DNA of 64,000 nt from Siminovitchia terrae (lineage in GTDB: Bacteria; Bacillota; Bacilli; Bacillales; Bacillaceae_C), in contig NZ_QYTW02000001.1 in the NCBI RefSeq assembly GCF_003605405.2, positions 1 through 64,000 of the forward strand, written 5' to 3'. Made by a program: the position numbers and the translations under genes. Shown piece by piece: positions 2,100 through 49,985 of this stretch (position 1 is its first letter; the number at the start of each line of letters is the position of its first letter). A model generated the notes under the pieces. That model searched no databases. It worked only from the letters and a program-made list of their open reading frames with translations, and was not told the DNA's origin.

Positions 2100-4514
2100 T
2101 TATATCCCTCCACTTAAAGATTGCTTTAGACTTAAGAGCTTTCTTTCAAATTTTTCAGTTGTCATGGGGTAACCAACATAATAGCCTTGTGCATATTTAC
2201 ATGTAGTACCCAATAAAAACTCTAGGTCTGCCTTTGTTTCTACTCCTTCAGCAACCACCTTTAAATTCAAATGTTGAGCTAATGATAAAATACACTGTAC
2301 AATGGCCGCATTCTCTTTATTGGTTGCAATGCCAGAGATGAATGACTTATCAATTTTTAAAATATTAATCGGATATTTTTGTAAGTAACCAAATGAAGAA
2401 TATCCTGTACCAAAATCATCTATTGATATTTTTACTCCCAGATTTTTTAAAGCATGCAACTTCTTAATTGTAATCGAGTGGTCCATGATTGCTATACCCT
2501 CGGTGATTTCCAATTCGAGATATTGTGGATTAAGTTTTGTTTCGCTTAAAATTTGTGAAACGGATTCAACAAAGTTGTACTCATTAAACTGTTTCATCGA
2601 AACATTCACAGCTATTGTTAGAGGAGGAAAACCCTGTTCCTGCCACTTTTTATTTTGCCGGCATGCTTCTCTCATAATCCACTTCCCAAGCGGTAAAATT
2701 AAATTGGTTTCTTCCGCCAATGGAATAAATTCAGAAGGAGGAATATACCCGAATTCTTTGTTGTTCCATCTCACTAATGCTTCGACACCAGATATTCGTT
2801 CGTGTTCGAGATCCAATTGAGGTTGAAAATTCAATTCAAATTCATTATTTTCCAAAGCCATTCGCAACTGTTTCTGCAAAGTCACTTTACGTTGAAGATT
2901 CTGATTGATTTCTGGAGTGTAAAATTCAAATCCATTTTTTGTCTTTTCCTTCACAGAATACATGGCAGCATCGGCATATTTCATCAATTGAACGGCATGT
3001 CCCCCATTTTCAGGATATAAACTTATACCAATACTGGGTGTAATGAATAAACTATATTTTTCAACCAAAATGGATTGTTTAAATAGATCAAGAACATCAT
3101 TGGCCAGTTTTGAAACAGATTGAATTGAACAATTTTGAAAGATGAAAGTAAACTCATCTCCGCCTATGCGGTATACCCTGACGTCGCGATCACATTTATT
3201 TATAACCAATTGAAGGAGGTATGATATTTCTATTAAGAGTAAATCGCCTATATCATGTCCCAATGTATCATTTATATTTTTAAAACCATCTAAGTCCATA
3301 TAGAAAAGAGCCATTTGATTATTCTGTTTTTTCGCCGCCTTGATTGCCTGACACAAGTCCTCATCGAATAGCCGGCGATTCGGCAATTGCGTTAAAGAAT
3401 CATGATAGGCGAGATTTTTAATTTTCTCTTCCTGCTCCTTTAACTCGGTAATATCGGTTGAAACCCCCAAAACCAAATTGTCATCGATGGTCCGGATAGG
3501 TATTCTAAACGTTTTTAACCATTTTTTGTTGCCATATTGATCTTGTATTTCTTCCTCATGTGCAACGAGTTCATTTGAGGTTTTACTTTCTTCCTTCGCA
3601 AGAAGATCTGAACTTCTTTTTTCCAACTTTGAAATATCCTCTTCAGTTTTACCAATCATATCGTGTGAGTTAAAACCATGTAAATCTGCAAATGCCTTAT
3701 TTGCCAATGCATAGGTTCCATCCTGCTTGATAGCATAAATATAGTTTGGATTTACATCAATCAACTTCTGTAAAAAACTCCTTTGATTGTCCAATGCTTT
3801 ATTCATCTTATTTACCACTTGGACATGTAGTCGTAATGAAAGAATAAAGATGGAAATCGCAAAAAATCCGACAGCAAATCCACTTGGATATAATCTGGTT
3901 TCCGGGATAATGTTTAACATTCCAAAAGCATATCCCATGGTAATCGCAATGATGAAATAGAATAGGAATGATTTATATTCGTCATTTTTCATTTTCAAAA
4001 TCAGCATGACACAAGCTACAATACTTACAACGAACAGGGCTACATTTGAATGGAACGCCCATGAATGTGTGCCATAAATAGGAAAGTAAAAACCCGCATG
4101 GCTACCCGTTTCTATCAGAATAATTTCCTCAATGCCTTTTTTACTCCATCCCATTAAATAAACAATAAAACTCCAAACATAAAATAAAAATACAACATAT
4201 TTGTTAACGAACAATTTCCACCCGCCCCCGAGATCATCCGTTACCAATTCTTTTTCGATTGAATAAGCGAAATGAAATAATGCCGGCGATAACATAATGG
4301 ATCCAATCCGGAGCAGCCTAAACAGAAAATCTATTGTTTCTTTGGAGAGGAAAGTGTATGCATACAAAACGGTTACATCAAATTGCCAAATACTTGCAAA
4401 AAATAAAAAGAGAAACAGAATACGTGACAGCTTTTTCTCCTTAAGAATTTTTAATAATAAAAAACCAATTAATAAGGGAATAACAGCAATTAAAGTAGAT
4501 ATGAGTAAGTTCAT
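2100..4514 (-). CDS. Membrane-bound PAS-GGDEF-EAL protein (c-di-GMP synthesis/degradation)
   Basis: An 804-residue protein that makes and/or breaks cyclic di-GMP. The first 230 residues hold about seven hydrophobic segments. A PAS domain follows (about 245-360), then a GGDEF domain with an intact GGDEF signature at 451-455, then an EAL domain (about 545-795) with the canonical EALVRW, DDFGTGYSS and EGVET motifs. Both catalytic halves therefore look competent. The start is the ATG with GGGGAG just upstream; an in-frame TTG 15 bp earlier lacks spacing. A 193-bp element ends about 18 bp upstream of the ATG, so the original promoter may be displaced. It is the only c-di-GMP enzyme seen here, alongside a c-di-GMP riboswitch 43 kb away. 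Confidence 0.95.
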   Translation of the reverse strand: MNLLISTLIAVIPLLIGFLLLKILKEKKLSRILFLFLFFASIWQFDVTVLYAYTFLSKETIDFLFRLLRIGSIMLSPALFHFAYSIEKELVTDDLGGGWKLFVNKYVVFLFYVWSFIVYLMGWSKKGIEEIILIETGSHAGFYFPIYGTHSWAFHSNVALFVVSIVACVMLILKMKNDEYKSFLFYFIIAITMGYAFGMLNIIPETRLYPSGFAVGFFAISIFILSLRLHVQVVNKMNKALDNQRSFLQKLIDVNPNYIYAIKQDGTYALANKAFADLHGFNSHDMIGKTEEDISKLEKRSSDLLAKEESKTSNELVAHEEEIQDQYGNKKWLKTFRIPIRTIDDNLVLGVSTDITELKEQEEKIKNLAYHDSLTQLPNRRLFDEDLCQAIKAAKKQNNQMALFYMDLDGFKNINDTLGHDIGDLLLIEISYLLQLVINKCDRDVRVYRIGGDEFTFIFQNCSIQSVSKLANDVLDLFKQSILVEKYSLFITPSIGISLYPENGGHAVQLMKYADAAMYSVKEKTKNGFEFYTPEINQNLQRKVTLQKQLRMALENNEFELNFQPQLDLEHERISGVEALVRWNNKEFGYIPPSEFIPLAEETNLILPLGKWIMREACRQNKKWQEQGFPPLTIAVNVSMKQFNEYNFVESVSQILSETKLNPQYLELEITEGIAIMDHSITIKKLHALKNLGVKISIDDFGTGYSSFGYLQKYPINILKIDKSFISGIATNKENAAIVQCILSLAQHLNLKVVAEGVETKADLEFLLGTTCKYAQGYYVGYPMTTEKFERKLLSLKQSLSGGI

Positions 4515-11860: not shown

Positions 11861-11970
11861 TTCTCATCTTCCAAGTTGTTTCCAACTTGATGGATTTAGC
11901 ACCTTTCCGCATGAAGCGGTGGTTGCTGAGGCGTCATAGGGCCATTCCCTCAACCTCTCTTGATAAGAAA
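11861..11970 (-). promoter_or_regulatory. SAM-I riboswitch (S-box)
   Basis: The minus strand reads CTTATCAAGAGAGG, then GAGGGAATGGCCC, GACGCCTCAGCAACC, and the P1 closing strand GATGAGAAG. These are the conserved S-box blocks in order, with P1 pairing CUUAUC/GAUGAG. Binding of SAM should promote the downstream terminator and shut off metI and the two genes after it. It is the only S-box visible, so the whole operon likely depends on it. Confidence 0.95.
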
Positions 11971-19864: not shown

Positions 19865-19927
19865 GAATTAAGGCATGTCTTAATAAACGTTCAAATTCCT
19901 GCCATTTGAACGTATAGCGGCTACCTT

Positions 19928-20056
19928 CATCTTCTCCCATCCAGACTATACTGTCGGCTTTGGAATCGCACCAAATCCTGCCTTTATCAGGCTCGCGGGC
20001 TCAGAGACTTATGCCTCATTACCGCCGGTCGGGAATTTCACCACGCCCCGAAGATG
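19928..20056 (-). promoter_or_regulatory. FMN riboswitch (RFN element)
   Basis: Minus-strand blocks in canonical order: CATCTTCGGGGCGTGGTG, AAATTCCCGACCGGCGGTAA, AGCCCGCGAGCC, GATTTGGTGCGATTCC, and GGATGGGAGAAGATG closing P1. FMN binding should favour the downstream terminator and silence ribU. Confidence 0.97.
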
Positions 20057-20256
20057 AATCATATATGTTATTTTGCTTTATTATACAACAAGAGTCCTAA
20101 TTTGTGAAGATATTTGTCAAAATACTATTATTTGTATTGTTTACCTGTCTTAATGACATCATGTATCCCATTGATTTAGCCGAACTAAGCTTTTATTGAA
20201 CGACCCAATTTGTTACGCATGAAACAAGATTAGACGTCAATATTCAGCATGTTTCT

Positions 20257-24043: not shown

Positions 24044-25683
24044 GTATTCCCACTTTCTTTTCCTTTATTTTCTCCCGTCTGGTCTATGACATCTGGTATA
24101 GATGTATCTTTAATAAGATCAGATATATCTTTTTTCAACCCATGCCAGTTTTTATTTGTATGGCCTGCAATTAAAATTTCTCCATCTTTGCGCTGAAGCC
24201 AGATTCTTCGGTGCATCCAGAACGAACCTTGAATGACACCAATCATGAAAATAGCGCCGCCGACTCCTAAAATCCATAAAGTCATGTCTTTCCTGACAGT
24301 GAGTGCTGTCGCATTCCTTGTATCAATACCTTTGAAAGTCATTTTATAATCGGTTTCTCCCAGCGGCTCCACCGTTTGCCTAATAGCCGTAAAGCTGACT
24401 TCCCCCTTCGGGTGTTCTGGAGAGATCATGTTAAATACAAAGGCAGGATTATTTGGATTTGGCGAATTTGTCTGGGGCTCCCCATTTTCGGCAAAGCCCG
24501 AAAAATCCGGATAATAGCCAACCAGTTCAACTTTATATCCATTGCCCAAATCATAGCTGTCCTTAGGATCGAATAAATCGATTGTCACATCTCCATAACC
24601 CTTTTCCTGCTTCTTGTTCATAAGGGTAAAAGTCATTGACTGAAACTCATCTGACCTATAGCTTTGTTGATAGATGGCGAAGTGGTCAAATTTCAAAGGT
24701 TCGTTAACAATTATTTTCGCTTTTTTCACTTCGACAAGATCGCTTTCCGATCCAAGCGTCTGTTCAGGATCCCGTTTGTATAAAACTACGTCAGACTTGA
24801 ATTCCTTTACTACGGGACCGGCTTTCTCCAATGCTGAATTGTATACTTCCTTATCCTTTTCCTTATCATAAAAATCGACTGTGAATTTTTTGTTTTCCAA
24901 GACATATTCGTTATTGGTCCCAGGGATTGTTTTTGTTTCTCCATCACGGAGCCAAAGCACTTCGTCGACATACATACCGGGAACGAACCGCAGCATACCT
25001 CCAATCAGGAATATGATGAGTCCAATATGGTTAACGTAAGGGCCCCATCTTGAAAACCTTCCTTTTTCGGCAAGAATGTTTCCGTCTTCTACTCGGATAT
25101 TATATTTTTTATCCTTAAGTGCTTTTTCGAATTTTTCAATATCCCCGTCCGAAATGTTCGCTTCCTTACGGTTAAAGAGACGCTGTCTTTTCAAAAATCC
25201 CTCATGGCGGTCCACACGCTGATTCTTCAATGCTCTATGAAGCGGAATCACCCTGTCCAGGCTGCAAATGACAAGGGAGACCCCGATGGAAGCAATCAGT
25301 AGCAGATACCACCAGGAGCTATATAAATCGTGTAAACCAAGCCAATAATAAATTTGGCCCAAAGTACCGTATTGTTCGCCATAATATTGAGCCGGATCCA
25401 CATTTGGCGGTATGTACATCACTTGGGGAAATATAGTCCCAAGCGCTGAAGCAATCAGCGTGATCACGATAAGCCAAATTCCCACTTTGACCGAGGAAAA
25501 AAAGTTCCACGTTTTATCAATGAAAGTCTTATTGTACGTCTGTGACCGACGTGCGCTACCTTCATAACGCATGTCATGAAGTTTTCCCTTCTTTGCCTCA
25601 TCCGTGAGGGCACGGCCACATGATTCACACAGGATGGTCCCGTGTGGATTGACATGGCCGCAGACACATTTTACTTCATTCAT
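24040..25683 (-). CDS. resB: Cytochrome c biogenesis protein ResB
   Basis: A 547-residue System II component. The cytoplasmic N-terminus carries a small zinc-ribbon-like segment ([10 protein letters not shown] ... CESCGRAL). Transmembrane helices lie at about 70-90, 120-145 and 215-235, a large external domain at about 250-465, and a last helix near 470-490. It pairs with ResC for haem delivery. It lies between resA and resC with a 6-bp gap and a 4-bp overlap, so the three are one transcription unit. Confidence 0.95.
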
Positions 25684-25689
25684 AAATAA

Positions 25690-26232
25690 CTAGCTCCCCT
25701 TAGGTTTGATACTCTCCATCATTTCCCTAATCTTTTGCTCTGTTAATTCACCTTCTTCAACTTTTATGACCTTTCCCTCTGGATTTACAAGAAGGGTGGC
25801 CGGCAAATTGAAGACACCATACATATTCATAATATCTTTGCTTTTATCTTTTAAAACTGGAAAATCCAAGCCATGTTTTTTCACAAATTTATTAATCTGA
25901 AATTCAGGTTCGCCAACATTGACCGCCAATATTTCGACTCCCTGATCTTTGAATTCCTTGTATTGATTATTCATATAAGGCATTTCCCGCTCACATGGCT
26001 TGCACCATGTTCCCCAAAAATTCAGGAAAACACCTTTACCCTTATAACTGGACAATTGATGCTTGTCCCCATTCAGATCCTCTAGAACAAAATCCGGAGC
26101 CATATCACCTGCTGAAACCTTTGATCTTGATTCCTTCGTAAAGTTTGCATATAAAGTATAAATAACAGCAGCCGTCATTACAGTTAATATAACTGTTCTG
26201 ATGATCAGACGACGCTTCTTTTTCGAAGCCAT
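25690..26232 (-). CDS. resA: Thiol-disulfide oxidoreductase ResA
   Basis: A 180-residue membrane-anchored thioredoxin-fold protein. A single N-terminal helix follows KKKRRLIIR. The TlpA-like domain carries the active site WGTWCKPCE and the cis-proline region NLPATLLVNPEG. It reduces the haem-binding CXXCH of apocytochrome c before haem attachment. The ATG is taken to match the family start; AAGGAGG is 14 bp upstream, and a TTG three codons earlier is the alternative. Confidence 0.95.
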   Translation of the reverse strand: MASKKKRRLIIRTVILTVMTAAVIYTLYANFTKESRSKVSAGDMAPDFVLEDLNGDKHQLSSYKGKGVFLNFWGTWCKPCEREMPYMNNQYKEFKDQGVEILAVNVGEPEFQINKFVKKHGLDFPVLKDKSKDIMNMYGVFNLPATLLVNPEGKVIKVEEGELTEQKIREMMESIKPKGS

Positions 26233-46304: not shown

Positions 46305-47228
46305 ATGGAGAAACGCACACTTGGAAAATCGGATTTGTCTGTATCAAAAATGGGACTGGGATGCATGTCATTAGGAACCGATTCGGCCAATGCCGAAAAA
46401 ATTATAAAAGCGGCTTTGGATGAAGGCATAAACTATTTTGATACTGCCGATTTATACAATTACGGTGTAAATGAAGAATTAGTTGGAAAAGCCCTCGCTT
46501 CCATACGTGATCAAGTGGTCATTGCTACAAAAGTGGGGAATCGATGGACAGAAAATAAGGATGGTTGGAGCTGGGACCCTTCTAAAAAATATATAAAAGA
46601 AGCAGTAAAAAAGAGTCTCAAACGCCTTGGTACAGATTATATCGACCTATACCAGCTGCACGGCGGAACCATCGATGACCCAATTGATGAAACAATTGAA
46701 GCTTTTGAGGAATTAAAATCTGAAGGTTTCATTCGCTATTACGGAATTTCCTCCATCAGACCCAATGTCATTCGTGAATACGTAGACCGTTCTTCCATTG
46801 TAAGTGTCATGATGCAATACAGTCTTTTGGACAGACGCCCGGAAGAAGTCATGGCTTCATTGAAGGAAAATGGGGTCAGTGTTGTAACAAGAGGATCTGT
46901 GGCAAAAGGCATATTAAGCGATACAATACTGAGCATCAAAGAAAATCAGTGGGAAGGAAAAGAATACCTTGATTACTCTTCAAATGAGATAAAAGAGCTT
47001 ATAGAAAGCATTCAAGCTAAACTATTACATGATAAAAGGTCTCTGAATGAATTGGCGCTTCAATTCAATTTAGCCAACAAAGCTGTTGCTGCTGTTGTAA
47101 CAGGGGCCAGCACCATTGAGCAGATAAAAGACAACGCCCGAGCAGTTAACTCAACGGCCTTGACAAAAGAAGAGTGGGCATTTTTACATATGGTGACACG
47201 CGAAAGCCACTATACAGCGCATCGTTGA
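46305..47228 (+). CDS. yqkF: Aldo/keto reductase YqkF
   Basis: A 307-residue TIM-barrel NADPH-dependent oxidoreductase. The catalytic tetrad is visible as DTADLYNYG (Asp, Tyr), the lysine in VIATKVGN and the histidine in YQLHGGTIDDP. The C-terminal cofactor region contains VTGASTIEQIKDN. Substrate unknown. The ribosome site (AAAGGCGGG) is about 7 bp upstream. Confidence 0.93.
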   Translation: MEKRTLGKSDLSVSKMGLGCMSLGTDSANAEKIIKAALDEGINYFDTADLYNYGVNEELVGKALASIRDQVVIATKVGNRWTENKDGWSWDPSKKYIKEAVKKSLKRLGTDYIDLYQLHGGTIDDPIDETIEAFEELKSEGFIRYYGISSIRPNVIREYVDRSSIVSVMMQYSLLDRRPEEVMASLKENGVSVVTRGSVAKGILSDTILSIKENQWEGKEYLDYSSNEIKELIESIQAKLLHDKRSLNELALQFNLANKAVAAVVTGASTIEQIKDNARAVNSTALTKEEWAFLHMVTRESHYTAHR

Positions 47229-47462
47229 AAATTATCGTTCGCCAAACTTTTACCTTTTTTCTAACATTTCCACATATATTTTATAAACATATTTTACTAT
47301 AATGGTCATAACGAATCACTTATTCCATTCCCGGGATTTTTCTGAGATAAATCGACAGCTTTCTATTTAAATGAACGAGTATTTGTTTCGTTTCAGTGCT
47401 TTTGGTCAACGACATTTTTTTCAGGACTATGACTTTGGAAACGCTTATACTAAGATTTATAC

Positions 47463-47553
47463 TTAGTGAAAAAGGCAAATCTGTTCGAAAGTCAGAGACG
47501 CAAAGCCACAGGCCTAAGGTTAATATGACTAACTATGGCGGCTGGGTTACCCG
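47463..47553 (+). promoter_or_regulatory. Cyclic-di-GMP-I riboswitch (GEMM-I)
   Basis: The conserved blocks appear in order: AAAGGCAAA, a P1b-type hairpin with a GAAA tetraloop (TCTGTTCGAAAGTCAGA), GACGCAAAGCC, GGCCTAAGG, then CTATGGCGGCTGGGTTACC. These are the ligand pocket, tetraloop/receptor and P2-P3 stems of GEMM-I. It ends 30 bp before the sinI-like start. No U-tract terminator follows; the closing GGGTTACCCG can extend to pair CCC with the GGG of the GGGAGG ribosome site, suggesting translational control. The stretch 47229-47462 shows no gene. Confidence 0.92.
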
Positions 47554-47582
47554 AATACATTCCGTATTTATGGGAGGTAGCA

Positions 47583-47708
47583 ATGAAAAAATCCGTCGTA
47601 ACAAAGCCAGAGAAGCTGGACGAAGAATGGGTAGAGCTCATATTGTCTGCGCTAAGCGTAGGAATCAGCCCTCAGGAAATTAAGGAATTCTTTAGGGAAC
47701 GTCTATAG
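47583..47708 (+). CDS. SinI-family anti-repressor, riboswitch-linked (SinI-1)
   Basis: A 41-residue protein: MKKSVVTKPEK, then LDEEWVELILSALSVGISPQ, then EIKEFFRERL. The central helix pair matches the SinI/SinR dimerisation motif (LDxEWVELxxxAxxxxIS(P/K)EEI). SinI binds SinR and stops it repressing biofilm matrix genes. GGGAGG lies 6 bp upstream and may be masked by the riboswitch platform. It is shorter than B. subtilis SinI (57 residues), lacking the tail. A sinR homologue follows after 91 bp. The c-di-GMP link is directly visible; the regulatory sign is not. Confidence 0.88.
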   Translation: MKKSVVTKPEKLDEEWVELILSALSVGISPQEIKEFFRERL

Positions 47709-47799
47709 TACATAATCATGACCCGTCAATCGGGAATTTTGCTCTATTCATAACCTATTATTTTATGTTATAATAGGCAAAGAGTAGGTGACTGTGTAA

Positions 47800-48120
47800 A
47801 TGATAGGTCAACGAATAAAAGATTATCGGCTTCAAAAAAAATTATCACTATCTGAATTGGCGGACAGAGCTGGAATTGCCAAATCCTATTTGAGTTCAAT
47901 TGAGCGCAATATCCAATCCAATCCGTCTATTCAAATACTCGAAAAACTTTCATCTGTCCTCGATGTTCCCGTCCATGTTCTCCTTCACGGAGAAACAGGT
48001 AAAATCGAATTAGACCACGATTGGGAAGAGCTAGTTTACGAAGCAATGTCTTCAGGTATTACAAAAGAAGAATTCCGTGAGTTTCTGGAATTCAATAAAT
48101 GGAAAATGAAGAACAAATAA
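47800..48120 (+). CDS. SinR-family biofilm repressor (SinR-1)
   Basis: A 106-residue protein with an N-terminal XRE helix-turn-helix (MIGQRIKDYRLQKKLSLSEL, GIAKSYLSSIERNIQSNPS) and a C-terminal SinI-like dimerisation hairpin (LDHDWEELVYEAMSSGITKE). This is the full SinR plan (111 residues in B. subtilis). It should repress matrix and adhesion genes at GTTCTYT sites and be antagonised by the upstream SinI-like peptide. The ribosome site is weak (AGGTG); a TATAAT lies at 47769, so it may have its own promoter. Confidence 0.92.
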   Translation: MIGQRIKDYRLQKKLSLSELADRAGIAKSYLSSIERNIQSNPSIQILEKLSSVLDVPVHVLLHGETGKIELDHDWEELVYEAMSSGITKEEFREFLEFNKWKMKNK

Positions 48121-48162
48121 GCGTTCCATGGCGATCATATCGTCTGGGCGTTTTTATTTTGT
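48121..48162 (+). terminator. Probable terminator of sinR-1
   Basis: GCGTTCC...GGCGAT pairs imperfectly with ATCGTC...GGGCG and is followed by TTTTTATTTT, directly after the stop codon. Confidence 0.5.
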
Positions 48163-48283
48163 CTAGAAAATCACTTGGTACCGATCAATTTCTCAATCAA
48201 ACTGATGGTTTGGGAACACCGAAGGAACGGTTTCCTCCGCTGATTTTTGCATTTTGGGCCGCCAGTTGCGCCCGTTTGGACTT

Positions 48284-49256
48284 TTCGGACAGTACTTCCT
48301 TGATGCGGATAGTATTTCTTTTTTCTGGATAGTATTTGCCTGGGCGCAGACAGTATTTATTCTTTCTGGACAGTATTTGCCTGGGCGCAGACAGTATTTA
48401 TTCTTTCTGGACAGTATTTGCCTGGGCGCAGACAGTATTTATTCTTTCTGGACAGTATTTGCCTGGGCGCAGACAGTATTTATTCTTTCTGGACAGTATT
48501 TGCCTGAGCGCAGACAGTATTTATTCTTTCTGGACAGTATTTGCCTGAGCGCAGACAGTATTTATTCTTTCTGGACAGTATTTGCCTGGGCGCAGACAGT
48601 ATTTATTCTTTCTGGACAGTATTTGCCTGGGCGCAGACAGTATTTATTCTTTCTGGACAGTATTTGCCTGAGCGCAGACAGTATTTATTCTTTCTGGACA
48701 GTATTTGCCTGAGCGCAGACAGTATTTATTCTTTCTGGACAGTATTTGCCTGGGCGCAGACAGTATTTATTCTTTCTGGACAGTATTTGCCTGGGCGCAG
48801 ACAGTATTTATTCTTTCTGGACAGTATTTGCCTGAGCGCAGACAGTATTTATTCTTTCTGGACAGTATTTGCCTGAGCGCAGACAGTATTTATTCTTTCT
48901 GGACAGTATTTGCCTGGGCGCAGACAGTATTTATTCTTTCTGGACAGTATTTGCCTGGGCGCAGACAGTATTTATTCTTTCTGGACAGTATTTGCCTGAG
49001 CGCAGACAGTATTTATTCTTTCTGGACAGTATTTGCCTGAGCGCAGACAGTATTTATTCTTTCTGGACAGTATTTGCCTGGGCGCAGACAGTATTTATTC
49101 TTTCTGGACAGTATTTGCCTGGGCGCAGACAGTATTTATTCTTTCTGGACAGTATTTGCCTGAGCGCAGACAGTATTTATTCTTTCTGGACAGTATTTGC
49201 CTGAGCGCAGACAGTATTTATTCTTTCTGGACAGTATTTGCCTGAGCGCAGACAGT
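48284..49256 (+). repeat. Phased tandem array: 22 units of 41 bp plus diverged edge units
   Basis: From 48348 to 49249 there are 22 units of exactly 41 bp. Each consists of GACAGTATTTATTCTTTCTG (20 bp) and a 21-bp half with GACAGTATTTGCCTG then GGCGCA or AGCGCA. The only variable base is G/A in GCCTGRGCGC. After an initial run of G it alternates GG and AA pairs, so the last expansions copied a 164-bp block of four units. Left-edge half-units (48284-48347) are diverged (GGACAGTACTT, GGATAGTATTT). There are 48 AGTA cores, spaced 20 or 21 bp. All coding frames are shadows of the repeat. Confidence 0.97.
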
Positions 49257-49418
49257 ATACCGCTTAAATTGCATTACCGTTTTTTCCTCCCCTATTCTTA
49301 CTAATAGGTTTTGCTCCATTTAAAAAACTTCAATTTCTACAGTATTTTCTCAATTAAGAACCTTTTTCTTTCAAATGCAACTGTTTTCTCATTTTTACTT
49401 ACTATTTCCCGACTTTAT

Positions 49419-49446: not shown

Positions 49447-49472
49447 ATAACAATGAAAGGGGGTCATGTTTT

Positions 49473-49802
49473 GTGATCGGGCTTTATATTAAGGAGCTCA
49501 GGGAAAAAAGGGGGTTCTCACTCTCCAAACTTGCCCTAAAGGCTGGCATATCAAAATCATATCTAAGCTACATAGAACGGGATATGCAAAAAAACCCTTC
49601 ATTGCAAGTCCTCTCCAAAATCGCCCGCCCTCTCGGAGTTTCGGTTGAACAGCTTTTGCAAGAAAGCACCCAAAGAGAGATCAAATTAGACCGAGAATGG
49701 CAATTGCTGGTGCAAAAAGCAATACACGCCGGCATGAGGAAAGAAGATTTTCTGGAATACTATGAATTCATTCGTTTTAAAAACCGCCATAAGAAAAGAT
49801 GA
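49473..49802 (+). CDS. SinR-family repressor (SinR-2)
   Basis: A 109-residue protein with the same plan as SinR-1. An XRE domain (IGLYIKELREKRGFSLSKLA, GISKSYLSYIERDMQKNPSL) is followed by a dimerisation hairpin (LDREWQLLVQKAIHAGMRKEDF). The GTG start has AAAGGGGGT 9 bp upstream; the open frame extends 54 codons 5' through A/T-rich DNA without a site. A sinI-like gene follows 24 bp later, so here the repressor precedes its likely antagonist. Confidence 0.92.
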   Translation: MIGLYIKELREKRGFSLSKLALKAGISKSYLSYIERDMQKNPSLQVLSKIARPLGVSVEQLLQESTQREIKLDREWQLLVQKAIHAGMRKEDFLEYYEFIRFKNRHKKR

Positions 49803-49826
49803 ATTTCCATAAAGGAGAATGGAACA

Positions 49827-49985
49827 ATGGGAGATCATAAAGGGGGTAATCAGTATCTTGGTTATCTTGATTACGAATGGGTTTTACTGTTAAATGAGGC
49901 GAAGCAAATGAGTATTACAAAAGAAGAGATTCTCTTATTTTTTAAGAGTAAAAGGATTCAAGAGGATAAAGAAATAAATTGTTAA
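49827..49985 (+). CDS. SinI-family anti-repressor (SinI-2)
   Basis: A 52-residue peptide whose core LDYEWVLLLNEAKQMSITKE followed by EILLFFKSK matches the SinI/SinR helix hairpin. The N-terminus is unrelated to SinI-1 (GDHKGGNQYLGY). AAAGGAG lies about 10 bp upstream. Its probable partner is SinR-2 just upstream, whose hairpin has the same LDxEW start. Confidence 0.82.
   Translation: MGDHKGGNQYLGYLDYEWVLLLNEAKQMSITKEEILLFFKSKRIQEDKEINC

Follow-up and report, generated by a model that had tools for sequence, protein, structure and literature searches.

A conserved pairing of a c-di-GMP-I riboswitch with the anti-repressor gene sinI and its predicted translational platform

Riboswitches for c-di-GMP and the SinI/SinR switch

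The textbook picture of the SinI/SinR biofilm switch comes from B. subtilis, in which sinI is under the control of Spo0A and the genes repressed by SinR are the matrix genes. Outside B. subtilis, a riboswitch for c-di-GMP has already been placed in front of sinI. In B. methanolicus, putative c-di-GMP riboswitches precede, among other genes, sinI, which encodes the antagonist of the biofilm regulator SinR (PMC4342826), and the RNA-seq study of strain MGA3, in which mapped 5'-UTRs were compared with Rfam, carries a row named "(c-di-GMP)-sinI" in its Table 4 (PMC4342826). This entry puts the pair in print as a prediction, and supersedes the remark, made in a first-pass annotation of the DNA analyzed here, that no published example was known. 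In B. thuringiensis, overexpression of a diguanylate cyclase is described as having raised sinI (PMC7793685), and the riboswitches Bc1 and Bc2 of this species have as their targets, respectively, mcpE and a collagen adhesion protein (PMC11218506, PMC4933901, PMC4759541). Bc1 is reported to bind its ligand, yet downstream expression hardly tracks c-di-GMP (PMC11218506).

The sinI locus of Siminovitchia terrae and its recurrence

The window, by which we mean the whole 64-kb stretch of S. terrae DNA under analysis, contains a c-di-GMP-I (GEMM-I) aptamer that lies directly upstream of a 41-codon gene and of sinR, all of them in the same orientation (Table 1). The aptamer matches the RF01051 model over its entire length (model positions 1-87 of 87), scoring 77.3 bits, where the gathering score is 35, with an E-value of 1.9e-13 in the search of the 64-kb window. 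The GGCAAA, GACGCAAA and CGAAAG blocks and the closing CC agree with the Rfam consensus, so that the first-pass claim of a complete set of GEMM-I blocks is confirmed by the covariance-model search that had been proposed for it. In Vc2, the contacts to the ligand are made by G20, A47 and C92 (PMC4744006). Mapping this numbering onto the window aptamer places the three contacts in columns that are intact, as is the GAAA tetraloop, and one C of the closing CC corresponds, as mapped here, to C92 of Vc2.

Two elements upstream of the aptamer resemble a promoter -10 hexamer. The TATACT listed in Table 1 is common to three relatives (S. fordii, B. norwichensis and S. fortis), and the position of the aptamer behind this conserved element, a predicted promoter read from the sequence, fits a location in the 5'-UTR; a second TATACT (47458-47463), which is the one reported by the consensus scan, is not conserved in the same three relatives.

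The gene downstream of the aptamer starts with ATG, runs for 41 codons plus a stop and encodes a SinI-family protein. Residues 12-38 score 44.5 bits with the PF08671 (SinI) model, whose cut-off is 31.4, and the alignment of residues 10-37 to 1b0n_B, a SinI chain of solved structure, has an E-value of 1.5e-4. Both results bear out the identity originally proposed for this product, and no match to the 41 residues was obtained with HTH models. The aptamer does lie just 5' of this gene, as had been stated, but the gap to the ATG measures 28 nt and not 30. The partner gene, sinR, adjoins sinI on its downstream side, and its product passes both the PF01381 (HTH_3, 60.6 bits) and the PF08671 (50.3 bits) cut-offs. 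The promoter-like site preceding sinR was obtained in a consensus scan that found 4 sites against 2.7 expected in shuffles, and its TTATAAT stretch is kept in a related locus (L123) that carries neither the riboswitch nor the upstream sinI.

Table 1. Features of the sinI-sinR locus, in positions of the window
Feature	Position	Strand	Basis
TATACT, probable -10 element of the sinI leader promoter	47446..47451	+	read from sequence
c-di-GMP-I (GEMM-I) riboswitch aptamer	47464..47554	+	Rfam RF01051
Predicted anti-Shine-Dalgarno hairpin, CCCGAATAC/loop/GTATTTATGGG	47550..47574	+	fold, -7.0 kcal/mol
Rival hairpin masking the Shine-Dalgarno when CC is held	47556..47579	+	constrained fold, -6.2 kcal/mol
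Shine-Dalgarno GGGAGG, 5 nt 5' of ATG	47572..47577	+	sequence
sinI, SinI-family anti-repressor, 41 aa	47583..47708	+	PF08671, 44.5 bits
Promoter-like site of sinR, TTCATA-16-TATAAT, 10 of 12	47747..47774	+	consensus scan
sinR, HTH repressor with C-terminal SinI-type domain	47800..48120	+	PF01381 and PF08671

The aptamer is the sole c-di-GMP-I match in the 64-kb window and one of two in the 5.3-Mb genome. The other (contig 9, 25162-25245) precedes an EAL-domain match (25338-26012) and is followed on its 3' side by a terminator-like stretch that can be read by eye (L001). Five GGDEF and four EAL domains are counted in the genome, so that c-di-GMP can probably be both made and degraded there. Within the window itself, GGDEF and EAL matches at 2169-3410 (- strand) share a single open frame of 810 residues, likely a c-di-GMP turnover protein, and two further riboswitches are present on the - strand, one for SAM (11861-11969, 101.5 bits) and one for FMN (19925-20059, 116.9 bits).

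A second SinR-SinI pair is located at 49461-49985, with a SinR-like gene ending at 49802 and a SinI-like gene (49827-49985) that scores 31.5 bits against the cut-off of 31.4; the c-di-GMP-I search found nothing at this pair. Between it and sinR lies a tandem array (48283-49258) of a 41-base unit, in 23.9 copies with 97% matches. Further SinI-like genes map to contigs 17 and 37 of the genome, and no aptamer was detected at E 0.01 in the stretches around them (L064 and L103).

Within the named collection, the SinR loci closest to that of the window belong to Bacillus sp. HF117_J1_D (98%), Siminovitchia fordii (97%), B. norwichensis (97%) and S. fortis (95%). We built a model (R1) from 32 aptamers and ran it over the best 80 of 307 named SinR loci, which yielded 70 matches in 69 of them. 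In 66 of the 80 an aptamer lies less than 150 nt upstream of a co-oriented SinI match, a proportion that is biased as an estimate for the order because the 80 are the best of the 307 by similarity to the window SinR. Another 13 of these best 80 present a SinI without a co-oriented aptamer within 150 nt, and a single one, L123, has neither aptamer nor SinI. In 19 of these 66 loci, aptamer and sinI run antiparallel to sinR, which indicates that the riboswitch travels with sinI rather than with sinR. Across 34 genomes of the window's family, an aptamer match is present in 28 of 90 SinI/SinR loci, some of which overlap, and within the genus, G001 and G004, two genomes out of six, carry no aptamer at the sinR locus.

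In one close relative, leader and gene are also missing together. The SinR of L123 is 98% identical to that of the window, and the alignment of this locus stops at window position 47223 and resumes at 47702. The missing block (47224-47701) comprises the leader and nearly all of sinI, gone as one piece, while the aldo/keto reductase gene that borders it on one side is retained, as are sinR and its promoter-like site on the other. In S. thermophila (L135), the alignment is broken between window positions 47181 and 47738, and neither the aptamer nor an upstream sinI was found at its sinR locus. Positions ~2300-2440 of L135, 5' of sinR, look by eye like a decayed remnant of sinI.

In order to follow the complete leader, a second model (R2) extending from the aptamer to the start codon was built from 33 leaders. 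Of the 249 genomes of the order that were searched with it, 222 contain a match, plain aptamers included. We examined 90 places scoring at least 88.3 bits, in which the downstream frames were scored with a SinI profile derived from the named loci. A SinI follows the match in 80 of the 90, and in all 40 of those examined that reach 105.6 bits or more; the genomes in which the 80 reside span, by hand tally, 22 families and 29 genera. Outside the 90, at least 11 further R2 matches attain 88.3 bits (in G000, G008, G009, G013, G018, G034, G080, with two, G108, G141 and a second place in G198), and in the first five of these genomes the aptamers are located, by their coordinates, just 5' of SinI-domain matches. 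The survey of relatives that the first-pass annotation had called for recovers the pair in both collections, and we take the pair to be real, conserved and probably functional.

The remaining ten R2 matches of the 90 have no SinI downstream (L244, L271, L273, L277, L278, L286, L287, L288, L289 and L291) and were removed before the pair counts of the platform stem given below. In L288 (G127:C82:52353-52470), which scores 89 bits with R2 and bears a similar CC...GG platform, the downstream ORF is Spo0E-like (PF09388, 51.4 bits), and the same RNA arrangement may elsewhere connect c-di-GMP to Spo0E-type regulators. In L278 and L291 (from G217 and G193, the latter with further R2 matches), a c-di-GMP-I aptamer with a very short platform of the CCTGATA/TATCAGG type sits directly 5' of a family 2 glycosyltransferase, PF00535 having been scored on the L278 protein only. 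In a similar vein, L244 and L273 (G072 and G140) combine an aptamer with a GTATTTT-GGAGG-type platform and no SinI downstream, the longest ORFs starting near these leaders having 55 and 44 codons.

The leader as a predicted anti-Shine-Dalgarno platform

Most sinI leaders end in the arrangement GCUGCC-UGAAAUAC-loop-GUAUUUUAGGAGG-start, in which CCUGAAAUAC pairs with GUAUUUUAGG, so that the closing CC of the aptamer binds the first GG of the Shine-Dalgarno sequence. In the window, the 5' arm of the predicted hairpin likewise opens with the conserved CC of the aptamer, and its 3' arm includes the first GGG of the Shine-Dalgarno sequence. The loops of this platform vary across leaders and the stems are conserved, and the platform is retained in three relatives of the window.

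The hairpin is conserved and covaries in the 80 leaders that precede a SinI: its ten pairs are 98.4% formed and six of the ten show changes on both sides, two figures that lean towards the stem because the model used to retrieve and to align the leaders already contains it. None of 500 shuffles of these leaders reached any of five stem measures, and sliding the partner lowers pairing to 28-53% (maximum 52.7%). The 33 training leaders of R2 were hand-picked from the 67 named ones to thin near-copies, with the divergent leaders of short or no hairpin left out, so that the matches of R2 lean towards the hairpin type, and some of the genomes searched are the same organisms as training rows. An unfitted alignment of the 67 named tails gives a stem pairing of 92.9%, versus 40-54% when slid, and in this alignment the stem covariation is not above that of shuffles; the CCC:GGG of Siminovitchia (versus CCU:AGG) is scored there as broken owing to a one-position shift of register. 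RNAalifold predicted no pairs on a MAFFT alignment of the 67 leader tails, and the single-sequence fold of the 157-nt leader is no better than that of shuffles (z 0.00). The hairpin is short, different or absent in the seven most divergent named leaders (L130, L161, L164, L176, L177, L199 and the first copy in L196). Four other loci (L154, L136, L165 and L182) were excluded from the named-leader counts on account of short weak matches or of a distant or interrupted aptamer.

Direction of the switch and comparison with known systems

We consider it probable that the leader acts as a translational ON riboswitch, in which c-di-GMP frees the Shine-Dalgarno sequence, raises SinI and relieves repression by SinR. 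An mRNA started at the promoter just upstream would begin with a c-di-GMP-I riboswitch that possesses a very short translational platform. When the ligand is absent, the hairpin would join the two 3' Cs of the aptamer to the GG within the sinI Shine-Dalgarno sequence, and little SinI would be made. Once c-di-GMP is bound, the aptamer would retain these Cs, and the hairpin would be weakened by the loss of two G-C pairs at the ribosome site; ribosomes would gain access and SinI would increase, sequester SinR and open the genes that SinR represses. Ligand binding, the ON direction and the effects on SinR and on biofilm are the parts of this scheme that we infer.

The energetic competition between aptamer and hairpin can be computed in relatives of the window. 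When the aptamer helices are imposed and the CC is held, the accessibility of the Shine-Dalgarno sequence, chosen by its best AGGAGG match, increases in 32 of 33 leaders, among which none of the seven divergent ones is included, and its mean goes from 0.46 to 0.75. Two of the 32 rises are negligible, namely those of L128 (+0.02) and of L188 (1.00 in both states), where the Shine-Dalgarno sequence may be a wrong pick. A simpler test, without imposed helices, shows a rise in 59 of 67 leaders. The window is the sole exception among the 33, since holding the CC with the helices imposed lowers its accessibility from 0.42 to 0.20, and in the simpler test the value falls from 0.36 to 0.20. The AUUCC of its loop allows a second hairpin to hide GGGAGG once the main one is blocked, and the drop arises because this rival hairpin, at -6.2 versus -7.0 kcal/mol, masks the Shine-Dalgarno sequence again. 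In this fold model, the ON reading hence fits the group of leaders well and, the window being the exception, its own genome only moderately. The initial proposal that the riboswitch controls sinI, and would give a one-step route from c-di-GMP to SinR, is partly supported, in that the aptamer precedes a genuine SinI and the pair recurs, but the fold of the window shows no release of the Shine-Dalgarno sequence with the CC held.

Under constrained folding, the leaders of the window and of L125 from B. norwichensis share the rival hairpin, which would fit a switch that is OFF or weak in this genome, in which the ligand-bound RNA also hides the Shine-Dalgarno sequence and c-di-GMP lowers SinI or changes it little. 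We regard this as unlikely, given that no such hairpin forms in the S. fordii and S. fortis leaders, that 32 of the 33 leaders are ON in the fold model and that the 0.8 kcal/mol separating both hairpins is within the error of a model that leaves the tertiary energy of the aptamer outside. A ligand that chose between termination and read-through before sinI would have a parallel in Bc1 of B. thuringiensis, which uses terminators (PMC11218506), and in the terminator-like stretch seen by eye behind the other c-di-GMP-I aptamer of the genome. Such transcriptional control is nonetheless very improbable here, as only 28 nt separate the aptamer from the ATG and the scan of 47220-48200 found no terminator (0 sites), on which ground a transcription terminator was rejected as the platform. 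The mechanism can be narrowed to a predicted translational anti-Shine-Dalgarno hairpin formed on the 3' end of the aptamer.

Control by Spo0A has also to be weighed. Among 66 leaders, 49 carry within 160 nt 5' of the aptamer a box that resembles TGTCGAA, which we take to be the Spo0A box, with at most one mismatch, against 34% of composition-matched control windows, and 22 carry a perfect one, against 2.7%, an enrichment that amounts only to a hint because related loci are counted separately. The enrichment across the whole set, together with the two of six genus genomes that have no aptamer at the sinR locus, would be compatible with a window riboswitch that is decayed or does not bind its ligand and a SinI level set by Spo0A-type transcription alone, though the window itself presents only a single one-mismatch Spo0A-type box, 113 nt 5' of the aptamer. 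This appears improbable to us, however, since the aptamer is full-length, stands 42 bits above the cut-off and keeps GGCAAA, GACGCAAA and CC intact, and the platform is kept in three relatives. Returning to the translational ON riboswitch, it may add to Spo0A control instead of replacing it, and a gate with two signals would result, in which Spo0A acts on transcription and c-di-GMP on translation.

More tentatively, and at somewhat less than even chances, it can be postulated that c-di-GMP has long controlled SinI translation directly and does so widely in the Bacillus order, as part of a two-signal gate with Spo0A-type transcription, and that B. subtilis represents a lineage without it. Should c-di-GMP set the translation of SinI across much of the order, one short RNA would join c-di-GMP and SinR, and B. 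subtilis would be a poor guide to its relatives as far as this link is concerned. The predicted use of one and the same aptamer end for ligand contact and as anti-Shine-Dalgarno makes the platform compact, and also offers a readily testable riboswitch design.

As in the SinI/SinR pair of B. subtilis (1b0n_A, 1b0n_B), a small SinI devoid of a DNA-binding domain adjoins an HTH repressor with a matching C-terminal domain; B. subtilis differs in that the search of control genomes found the SinI family in it, whereas a c-di-GMP-I match was present in none of these genomes. The (c-di-GMP)-sinI pair of B. methanolicus MGA3 shows the same putative c-di-GMP riboswitch before sinI (PMC4342826). It belongs to another organism and is entered there as a prediction, with no analysis of a platform or of conservation and no functional assay described alongside it (PMC4342826). 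As far as we have searched the open-access PMC literature, we found no earlier account of the breadth of the pair, the conserved platform and the predicted direction, which are the new elements here. The Bc1, Bc2 and Bc3-5 riboswitches of Bacillus thuringiensis bring the same c-di-GMP-I aptamer class in a Bacillus (PMC11218506, PMC4933901, PMC4759541), but Bc1 is described with a long platform and two terminators (PMC11218506), whereas the sinI leader has a short predicted anti-Shine-Dalgarno hairpin and an anti-repressor as its target.
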